Below are positions 41,062 through 43,868 of a stretch of 64,000 nt of DNA, one piece after another. The stretch is taken from NCBI GenBank assembly GCA_019670725.1, contig AP024629.1, forward strand, positions 4,340,001-4,404,000, read 5' to 3'. The stretch comes from Alphaproteobacteria bacterium SO-S41 (GTDB lineage Bacteria; Pseudomonadota; Alphaproteobacteria; Micropepsales; Micropepsaceae). The stretch's first letter is position 1. Each line of letters begins with the position of its first letter. The notes under the pieces are model-generated. The model ran no database searches. It worked only from the letters and a program-made list of their open reading frames with translations, and was not told the DNA's origin. Both the position numbers and the translations under genes were made by a program.

Positions 41062-42576
41062 TCAGGCCGCCGCGAGTTTGTGGCGGCGGCGTTCGACCGA
41101 GGAGGGGATGCGCATCGCTTCGCGGTACTTGGCGACGGTGCGGCGGGCGATGTCGACGCCGTCGGCTTTCAGGATGTCGACGATGCGGTCGTCGGACAGA
41201 ACGTCGTTGGGGCGCTCGGCTTCGATCATGTCGCGGATGCGGTGGCGCACGGCTTCCGAGGAGTGGCCATCGCCGCCTTCGGAGGAATTGATCGAAGACG
41301 TGAAGAAGTATTTGAGCTCGAAGAGGCCGCGCGGGCTCGCGATGTATTTGTTCGAGGTGACGCGGCTGACGGTCGATTCGTGCATTTGAATCGCTTCGGC
41401 AACGTTCTTGAGAATCAGCGGCTTCAGGTGGCGGACGCCGTGCGCGAAGAAGGCGTCCTGCTGGCGGACGATCTCGGTTGCGACCTTCAGGATGGTGCGG
41501 GCGCGCTGGTCGAGGCTCTTCACCAGCCAGTTGGCGCTGAGCATGCAGTCGGTGATGTAGGCCTTGGCTTCCTTGGCCTTGGGGCCGGCGGCGAGGCGCG
41601 CGCTGTAGCGGTTGTTGACGAGGACGCGGGGCAGCGTGTCGGCGTTCAGTTCGACCGCCCAGCCGCCATTGTTGGTCACCTTGAGGAAGACGTCGGGCAC
41701 GATGGCGGGCGAATCCTCGCCGCTCGCGAAGACGAGACCGGGCTTGGGGTTGAGAGCGCGTATTTCCGAAATCATGCCCGCGAGGTCTTCGGCATCGACG
41801 CCGGTGACCCGCATCAGGCCGACGAGATCGCGGCGCGCGAGGAGTTCGAGATGGCCGACCATCGCCTCCATGGCGGGGTCGAAGCGGTCCTTCTCGCGGA
41901 GCTGGATGGCGAGGCATTCGGCGAGCGAGCGGGCGCAGACGCCGGCGGGGTCGAAACCCTGCATGCGGGTCAGCACGGCATCGATCTCGGCCTGCGGCAC
42001 GCCGAGCTTTTCGGCGGCGCCGTTGAGGTCAGCCTGGATGTAGCCGGTGTCGTCGACGAGATCGACGAGCCAGCCCGCGATCAGCTTTTCGACGGGATCG
42101 GCGAACGCGGTCTGGACCTGCTCGGCGAGATGGTCGCGGAGGGTCTTTTCCTTGCTGAGCAGCGCTTCGAGATCGCCGGCCTCGCCGTCGAAGCCGCCGC
42201 CCGTCCCGGCTTTCGACCAATCGACGGGACCTGAGCCCGCATCGGCATCGCCGCGTTCGGCGGCATCGGCGCGGGATTCGTCGGCGTAGACATTCTCAAA
42301 GCCGTTATCGAGCGCGGTCTCGGTGGAGACCCCACGCTCCAGCGCCTGGTCGAGGCGTTCAACCTGGGTTTCGGCCGCGACCGGAGCGGCGTCGCGGGCA
42401 TCCTCGGCGCCGCCGGGGGCTTCGCGTTCGAGCAGCGGGTTCCGCTCCAGTTCGTCCTCGACATAGGACTGGAGTTCGAGATTGGAGAGCTGCAGCAGCT
42501 TGATCGCCTGCTGCAGCTGCGGCGTCATGACCAGCGCCTGGCCCTGCCGGATCTCCAGCCGTTGCCCTAACGCCAT
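41062..42576 (-). CDS. rpoN: RNA polymerase sigma-54 factor
   Basis: The 504-residue protein has the N-terminal activator-interaction region QAIKLLQLSNLEL. Regions then follow for core binding, and the C-terminus has the RpoN box ARRTVAKYRE preceding the end. It directs transcription from GG-N10-GC promoters with enhancer proteins. It lies 27 bp after lptB. A consensus sigma-54 site occurs 860 bp upstream on the opposite strand. Confidence 0.97.
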   Translation of the reverse strand: MALGQRLEIRQGQALVMTPQLQQAIKLLQLSNLELQSYVEDELERNPLLEREAPGGAEDARDAAPVAAETQVERLDQALERGVSTETALDNGFENVYADESRADAAERGDADAGSGPVDWSKAGTGGGFDGEAGDLEALLSKEKTLRDHLAEQVQTAFADPVEKLIAGWLVDLVDDTGYIQADLNGAAEKLGVPQAEIDAVLTRMQGFDPAGVCARSLAECLAIQLREKDRFDPAMEAMVGHLELLARRDLVGLMRVTGVDAEDLAGMISEIRALNPKPGLVFASGEDSPAIVPDVFLKVTNNGGWAVELNADTLPRVLVNNRYSARLAAGPKAKEAKAYITDCMLSANWLVKSLDQRARTILKVATEIVRQQDAFFAHGVRHLKPLILKNVAEAIQMHESTVSRVTSNKYIASPRGLFELKYFFTSSINSSEGGDGHSSEAVRHRIRDMIEAERPNDVLSDDRIVDILKADGVDIARRTVAKYREAMRIPSSVERRRHKLAAA

Positions 42577-42603: not shown

Positions 42604-43389
42604 TTACAGAGTGAAGCGATCGCCGAGATAGACGCGGCGGACGTCACGGTCCCCCACGATCTCGGCCGGCGTGCCCTCCATCAGCACGCGCCCGTCATGG
42701 ATGATCGAGGCGCGGTCGATGATGTCGAGCGTTTCGCGCACATTGTGGTCCGTGATGAGGACGCCGATGCCGCGGTTCTTGAGATGCGTGACGAGCGCGC
42801 GAATGTCGCCGACCGCGATCGGGTCGATGCCGGCAAAGGGCTCGTCGAGCAGGATGTAGCTGGGGGCGCTGGCGAGCGCCCGGGCGATCTCGACCCGGCG
42901 CCGCTCGCCGCCCGAAAGGGCGATGGCGGGGGTGCGGGCGAGATGTTCGACGCCGAATTCGGCGAGGAGTTCCTGGGTCAGCTGGCGGGCGCGCGCCGGG
43001 TTCTTCTCGGTCAACTCGGCGACCGCCATGACATTGTCTTCAACGGTCAGGCCGCGGAAAATCGAGGCTTCCTGCGGCAGATAGCCAAGGCCGAGCCGCG
43101 CGCGGCGATACATTGGCAGCTTGGTCACATCGACGCCGTCGAGCTCGATCGTGCCGTAATCGGCCGGGATCAGCCCCATGATCATGTAGAAGCAGGTCGT
43201 CTTACCGGCGCCGTTGGGGCCGAGCAGGCCGACCGACTCGCCGCGGCGGACGTTCACGGAGATGCCGCGCACCACGGGGCGCTTGCGGAAGCTCTTGCCG
43301 ATGCGCGTGACCACGAGCCCGCCCGTCCCCTGGACCACGGTCGGTCCGGCAGATTTGGTGGCGGCATCAAGGGCGTTCGAGGTCATCAC
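42604..43389 (-). CDS. lptB: LPS export ABC transporter ATP-binding protein
   Basis: LptB powers transport of lipopolysaccharide from the inner membrane by LptB2FGC. The 261-residue ATPase has Walker A GPNGAGKTT, the signature LSGGERRRVEIARAL, Walker B YILLDEPFAGIDP and switch histidine (ITDHNVRETL). The N-terminus has about 20 extra residues before the fold. It is normally next to lptA; here 533 bp separate them. Confidence 0.96.
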   Translation of the reverse strand: MMTSNALDAATKSAGPTVVQGTGGLVVTRIGKSFRKRPVVRGISVNVRRGESVGLLGPNGAGKTTCFYMIMGLIPADYGTIELDGVDVTKLPMYRRARLGLGYLPQEASIFRGLTVEDNVMAVAELTEKNPARARQLTQELLAEFGVEHLARTPAIALSGGERRRVEIARALASAPSYILLDEPFAGIDPIAVGDIRALVTHLKNRGIGVLITDHNVRETLDIIDRASIIHDGRVLMEGTPAEIVGDRDVRRVYLGDRFTL

Positions 43390-43439
43390 GGCTCCATCAG
43401 ACGCATACGCGCTTAAGATTGGGTGAAGGACCGGCTGAG

Positions 43440-43456
43440 TTGGCGCGGTTCTTGCC
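43440..43456 (+). promoter_or_regulatory. Consensus sigma-54 promoter facing away from lptB
   Basis: TTGGCGCGGTTCTTGCC matches YTGGCRCGN4TTGCW at every fixed position except the last base. GG (43442-43443) and GC (43454-43455) are separated by exactly 10 bp. Transcription would start near 43467 and run into the intergenic region, antisense to the ORF at 43456-43803. No enhancer-binding protein gene is in the window. Confidence 0.6.
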
Positions 43457-43803
43457 TAAGGTAAACGCCGCCATGTTGGGCATTCCGTCGGTGGGCGCAA
43501 GCGACGAATGCTGCACCTGCGTTGCGGCAGGTGTAAGCGGGGTTGAACCGCGATTTTTCGGGTAATCGGCGGGTCCGCGCGAACCATTATTGCGCGACCG
43601 CGACATAAAGCATGTTCGTTTGTCATAGGCGTCCCGCGCAGGGATGTCGCATTCGAATGTCGACGGGCCGGATTTCCGCGACGGGCGGGTATTCGAACGT
43701 CGCTTAAGGGGTGGGTCTTTGTTGGGCGGTATTCGAATGCCGGTTTCTGACAATTGTTCACGAGCAGGCCGGGGAGGCCTGTCTCCTTCCCCCTACCAGG
43801 CAT
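43456..43803 (-). CDS. Possible 115-residue protein of unknown function
   Basis: This reading frame has complete expression signals: TTGACA-16-TATATT at 43868-43841, a perfect palindrome at the expected start, and GAGGAGG 7 nt before the ATG. The product is rich in Arg and Pro, with few hydrophobic stretches, and matches no family I know. Third codon positions are far less GC-rich than in neighbouring genes, and another frame is equally open. It may therefore be a decayed or foreign gene, or a leader RNA for lptB, which begins 66 bp after its stop. Confidence 0.4.
   Translation of the reverse strand: MPGRGKETGLPGLLVNNCQKPAFEYRPTKTHPLSDVRIPARRGNPARRHSNATSLRGTPMTNEHALCRGRAIMVRADPPITRKIAVQPRLHLPQRRCSIRRLRPPTECPTWRRLP
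43467..43558 (+). ncRNA. Candidate sigma-54-dependent small RNA
   Basis: From the start predicted by the sigma-54 site, the plus strand has a perfect 7-bp hairpin CACCTGC/GCAGGTG (43514-43533). It then has GCGG (43537-43540) and CCGC (43548-43551) followed by ATTTTT (43553-43558), a weak terminator. This would give an RNA of about 92 nt. No plus-strand ORF with expression signals follows. All boundaries are predictions. Confidence 0.35.
43651..43740. repeat. Three ATTCGAAY elements spaced exactly 40 bp
   Basis: ATTCGAATG at 43651, ATTCGAACG at 43691 and ATTCGAATG at 43731 recur every 40 bp. Each is preceded by a GGCGG(G)T or GTCGC stretch, and the last two share GGCG(G)GT upstream. The core ATTCGAAT is palindromic. 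The rest of each 40-bp unit is not conserved. This looks like a phased set of binding sites or a decayed tandem repeat. Confidence 0.6.
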
Positions 43804-43821: not shown

Positions 43822-43868
43822 AAGGATAATTATCCTTGGGAATATAAGTCTATTTCCGGGAGTGTCAA
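43822..43868 (-). promoter_or_regulatory. Strong sigma-70-like promoter with a perfect 16-bp palindromic operator
   Basis: On the minus strand TTGACA (43868-43863), 16 nt, TATATT (43846-43841). The perfect palindrome AAGGATAATTATCCTT (43822-43837) covers the expected start of transcription (about 43834), an ideal repressor position. The core GATAATTATC resembles two overlapping Fur-like hexamers, but the regulator is unknown. Transcription would read the 43456-43803 ORF and then lptB and rpoN. Confidence 0.65.

Follow-up and report, generated by a model that had tools for sequence, protein, structure and literature searches.

The sigma-54 holoenzyme makes closed complexes whose opening needs an activator, and autoregulation of its gene, rpoN, similar to that of Rhizobium leguminosarum has been reported for other rhizobia. 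In R. leguminosarum VF39SM itself, rpoN is negatively autoregulated, as stated in PMC3538637, which cites Clark et al. (2001) for it. More broadly, rpoN autoregulation has been deduced from sigma-54 promoters located upstream of rpoN in the alpha, beta and gamma classes (PMC12316311). As for the mode of action, the E. coli sigma-54 holoenzyme represses some sigma-70 promoters that it overlaps, with in vitro support for four of them (argT, chaC, mdfA and patA), and all such repressing sites carry a C at -12 (PMC4551910). No roadblock repression was seen at intragenic sigma-54 sites of E. coli (PMC4591121), and both positive and negative effects were confirmed for intergenic sigma-54 sites in Yersinia (PMC7657599). 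On the rpoN-lptB promoter or on rpoN autorepression, our search retrieved little literature.

Here, we analysed a sigma-54-like site upstream of lptB-rpoN in a 64,000-nt stretch of the genome of Alphaproteobacteria bacterium SO-S41 (hereafter, the window). As in R. leguminosarum, the gene concerned is the sigma-54 gene of an alphaproteobacterium, and we found reverse elements upstream of rpoN in the rhizobial relatives; however, in the genome studied here the element lies upstream of lptB rather than between lptB and rpoN, and autoregulation is predicted. Like the E. coli repressor sites of PMC4551910, it is a -24/-12 element that has C at position -12 and lies at or close to a housekeeping promoter, but its target would be sigma-54's own operon, and its overlap with the promoter is putative. 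With PMC12316311 it shares the target gene and the recurrence at the class level; however, that study deduces transcription of rpoN from sigma-54 promoters, whereas the elements described here mostly point away from rpoN.

The sigma-54-like site and the lptB-rpoN promoter region

In the window, lptB, which encodes the ABC ATPase of LPS export (42604..43389, minus strand; Pfam ABC_tran), is separated by 27 nt from the downstream rpoN (41062..42576, minus strand), whose product carries the three sigma-54 Pfam domains (AID, CBD and DBD), and the two genes are likely co-transcribed. The rpoN gene is intact, and because five strong sigma-54 activator domains are also encoded in the genome, the sigma-54 system is considered to be in use.

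The sigma-54-like -24/-12 element TTGGCGCGGTTCTTGCC (43440..43456, plus strand) lies 50 nt from the lptB start, is oriented in reverse relative to lptB-rpoN and faces the lptB-lptA gap. The 17-mer, its GG-N10-GC spacing and its direction are just as an earlier, sequence-only reading of this DNA had described them, and the TTGGCNNG...TTGC context is present as well. The same reading had all fixed positions matching except the last base, but against the full consensus YTGGCACG-N4-TTGCW the site agrees at 11/13 positions and deviates at two, carrying GGCGCG for GGCACG in addition to the different last base. With 4.5 matches of this quality expected per window, the site as a lone match is at chance level, and a plain consensus count over the window is uninformative for telling it from chance. 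Searching the window for the 16-mer with two mismatches gave 4 matches versus 9.7 expected, and TTGGCNCGN4TTGC occurs 7 times genome-wide versus 3 for a reversed-pattern control. Under a PSSM trained on E. coli sites mapped by ChIP and listed in PMC4591121 (the 42 intergenic-sense ones), TTGGCGCGGTTCTTGCC is the top-scoring position of the whole window, with a score of 13.0 (the 5th percentile of the training set is 13.3, the matrix coming from another host).

The site is raised above chance by its conservation, because GG-N10-GC is invariant in 5/5 members of the genus (the window and four other species). Four of them, including the window, are identical over all 17 nt, and the fifth has TTGGCCTGTTTCTTGCC. 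Retention of the GG and GC in related genomes, on which the sequence-only reading had made its proposal depend, thus holds within the genus. The spacer TTC is conserved to the same degree as the -24 part, and the site may therefore be overlapped by some other constraint.

The genus alignment places the site within a conserved block of ~100 nt before lptB, composed of CTTGCrC, 17-18 nt, an AACAT-like motif, CGTTAAC, the sigma-54-like element and TTCACCCAATCTTAAG. Upstream of it nothing aligns well, and the gene preceding lptB is lptA in three members, whereas L091 has an HxlR-like gene there and L092 a divergent one. Since conservation stops upstream of the block, where the neighbouring gene differs, the block is most simply the lptB-rpoN promoter and leader. 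Its putative -35/-10 pair, CTTGCGC - 17 - AACAT (43473..43501, minus strand), was assigned from the genus alignment (CTTGCrC/AACAT) and a weak sigma-70 match, and was not among the calls of a simple promoter scan. With the promoter so placed, the sequence has a sigma-54 element on the promoter of the rpoN operon. In L092, the divergent gene, which is membrane-protein-like, lies between lptA and lptB, and the site points at it from ~100 nt away.

The last part of the block, TTCACCCAATCTTAAG (43412..43427, minus strand), sits between the sigma-54-like site and the lptB start. Its equivalent is itself a reverse sigma-54-like element in genus g5 (TTGGCCTTAAAATTGCG) and in Tepidicaulis/Parvibaculum (TTGGCATTAAAATTGTA). 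This TTCAC...TTAAG block was also considered as the main sigma-54 site and rejected, because both GG and GC are lost in the genus studied here. Further upstream, at 43822-43868 (minus strand), TTGACA-16-TATATT forms a near-consensus promoter, after which come the palindrome AAGGATAATTATCCTT and a AGGAGGCGGAGTCATG-like start; a second copy of this unit, with AAGGACAATAGTCCTT, is found at genome position 3752094-3752153 (L007). The unit resembles a promoter under operator control; in the window it is directed toward lptB, to which it may contribute a transcript with a long leader.

The plus-strand stretch beyond the site

The sequence-only reading had the site drive a 92-nt plus-strand RNA (43467-43558) with a strong 7-bp hairpin and a weak terminator at 43558, antisense to an ORF at 43456-43803. 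The spacing of the site does predict a start near 43467, and the stem CACCTGC/GCAGGTG exists (CACCTGC-GTTGCG-GCAGGTG, 43513..43532, plus strand), but neither the stem nor the 92-nt region is conserved in the genus alignment, and the stretch as a whole folds no better than its shuffles (z = -0.72; 45/200 shuffles fold as well). The terminator scan made no call at the 3' end, which falls in GAACCGCGATTTTTCGGG, a repeat dispersed over the genome in about nine close copies, and an Rfam search gave no match for the proposed RNA.

The opposing ORF (43456..43803, minus strand; 115 aa) is probably not a gene, as judged from its lack of coding character: it has no Pfam family, its homologues are the genome's own repeats, apart from a 19-aa match in L090 that lies on the conserved lptB promoter, and its GC content is flat over the codon positions (0.61/0.59/0.58 versus 0.69/0.46/0.87 in lptB). 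Considering the unremarkable fold, the unconserved stem, the missing terminator, the 3' end within a repeat and the non-coding ORF, we rejected the 92-nt RNA. The same region contains an interspersed intergenic repeat at 43540-43640, made up of GAACCGCGATTTTTCGGGTAATCGGC and ACATAAAGCATGTTCGTTTGTC parts and present in about nine or more genome copies, and, at 43651-43742, three ATTCGAAyGyCG repeats spaced exactly 40 nt apart, which are also found, similarly flanked, at other places in the genome.

Recurrence in the family and across Alphaproteobacteria

We identified rpoN in 86/96 family genomes and in all 60 of the 60 good-quality ones, nearly always on the same contig as lptB and right after it. 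A site with a PSSM score of at least 11 is present within 150 nt upstream of lptB in 40/47 family genomes, compared with 3/46 in a control interval lying another 300 nt upstream and 0/48 within lptB. Markov-shuffle tests per genus returned a median p of 0.01-0.03 for g1, g2, g5 and g6, while g3, g4 and g7 (four genomes) did not stand out. The element is in reverse orientation in g1, g2, g5, Tepidicaulis (L009), Parvibaculum (L014) and L171, and its sequence differs by lineage (TTGGCCCGAATTTTGCT in g2, for example, alongside the g5 and Tepidicaulis/Parvibaculum elements given above). In the sister genus g6, it is forward and has an A where T is usual, so one scheme does not fit every member.

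Dozens of g6 species (e.g. L110, L134 and L144) share a ~45-nt block, TTCAyGGTTCCTTAAACACGAACAGGCATGrTTyTTGCC, at a fixed spacing right before lptB; the forward sigma-54-like element forms the end of this block, at the start codon. In a Rhodospirillales MAG (L021), TTGGCATACTAATTGCT lies in forward orientation ~116 nt before the aligned lptB start and is a very strong sigma-54-like element (score 20.4), which suggests that sigma-54 control is positive in this lineage.

Beyond the family, reverse elements occur between lptB and rpoN in Bradyrhizobium (TTGGTCCGATTTTTGCT), Mesorhizobium (CTGGCCCGGCTTTTGCT), Phenylobacterium and others. Across the lptB-rpoN gaps of 72 named loci, in counts that ignore shared ancestry and include many Bradyrhizobium loci, the 12.7 kb of sequence contained 32 sites with a score of at least 12 (30 reverse, 2 forward). 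The coding DNA of lptB and rpoN contains 27 such sites in 246 kb (16 forward, 11 reverse) and has no such bias; the density in the gaps is ~20-fold higher, coding sequence being an imperfect control for intergenic DNA. Sites in the gap go with gaps of at least 70 nt (32/40), those upstream of lptB with tight operons (44/82), and no locus carries both. A second, independent set of genomes, sampled evenly across the class, gave a weaker but agreeing signal: 12/75 genomes have a site (9 reverse, 3 forward; none with both positions), versus 4 sites in 48.6 kb of lptB coding DNA, and most genomes and families have no detectable one. Searching the whole class with a pattern for the reverse element was uninformative, the pattern being too loose.

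The sigma-54 site that the sequence-only reading had placed beside rpoN is, therefore, conserved in its genus and has reverse counterparts at rpoN or lptB-rpoN promoters in many Alphaproteobacteria. Seen against this recurrent alphaproteobacterial arrangement, TTGGCGCGGTTCTTGCC is a real, conserved and probably functional sigma-54 element.

Autoregulation and its alternatives

We propose, with a probability of roughly 0.6, that TTGGCGCGGTTCTTGCC is a reverse binding element for sigma-54 RNA polymerase within the lptB-rpoN promoter and leader, through which sigma-54 restrains its own operon. Sigma-54 polymerase would bind the element as a stable closed complex and, unless acted upon by an activator ATPase, would not start transcription. 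The bound complex would lie across the housekeeping start site of lptB-rpoN or immediately past it, so that plentiful sigma-54 would lower lptB-rpoN transcription, closing a negative feedback loop, and the reverse orientation would prevent activator-driven self-stimulation. Actual occupancy by sigma-54, the repression and the precise start site of lptB are what we infer here. The rpoN feedback circuit suggested in the sequence-only reading appears right in kind, considering the conserved and recurrent element, but not in its route via a small RNA: sigma-54 RNA polymerase sitting at the lptB-rpoN promoter gives the simpler explanation of feedback.

Several other explanations deserve weighing. 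The likeness to sigma-54 sites might be accidental, the conserved sequence being an operator for another DNA-binding protein or a part of the lptB housekeeping promoter or leader. The partly palindromic GGCAAGAA-N4-GCC, the conserved spacer TTC, the adjoining TTCAC...TTAAG block conserved for its own sake and the chance-level score of the lone match would all fit, but the genera use unrelated sequences that have only the GG-N10-GC grammar and the location in common, GG and GC stay free of variation in each orientation, and elements recur at rpoN promoters elsewhere, which makes this explanation rather doubtful. A match that arose by chance and has no function, as the number of equally good consensus matches expected in the window might suggest, is highly improbable in view of the 5/5 conservation in the genus and the sites at the same place across genera. 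Similarly low is the probability that we assign to the sigma-54-dependent 92-nt RNA discussed above, despite the predicted start and the stem.

Alternatively, the site could work as a sigma-54 promoter that activators switch on, and either the RNA made from it on the plus strand or its transcription as such would interfere with lptB-rpoN by antisense action or collision, without a defined 92-nt RNA. The 30:2 reverse bias in other taxa favours this, as simple occlusion does not strictly need such a bias, and so do the five activator domains and the aim of the L092 site at the divergent gene. No conserved RNA, structure or gene lies in the plus direction, however, no terminator was called, and the g6 element is forward; we regard such interference as unlikely. 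Likewise, we see only a slim chance that the reverse orientation persists owing to additional firing of the element, which activator ATPases would convert to an antisense or divergent promoter with a tuning effect on lptB-rpoN; if so, nitrogen or flagellar signals would feed back on sigma-54 supply and, via lptB, on LPS export across Alphaproteobacteria.

For the preferred reading, restraint of lptB-rpoN by sigma-54 polymerase bound at the reverse element, the comparisons point to a rule across several alphaproteobacterial lineages, in which whatever promoter feeds rpoN carries a reverse sigma-54 element, located in the lptB-rpoN gap or, where both genes form a tight operon, before lptB. If confirmed, the level of sigma-54 would be self-limited by its own DNA binding, and lptB, a gene of the LPS exporter, would be drawn into the loop.
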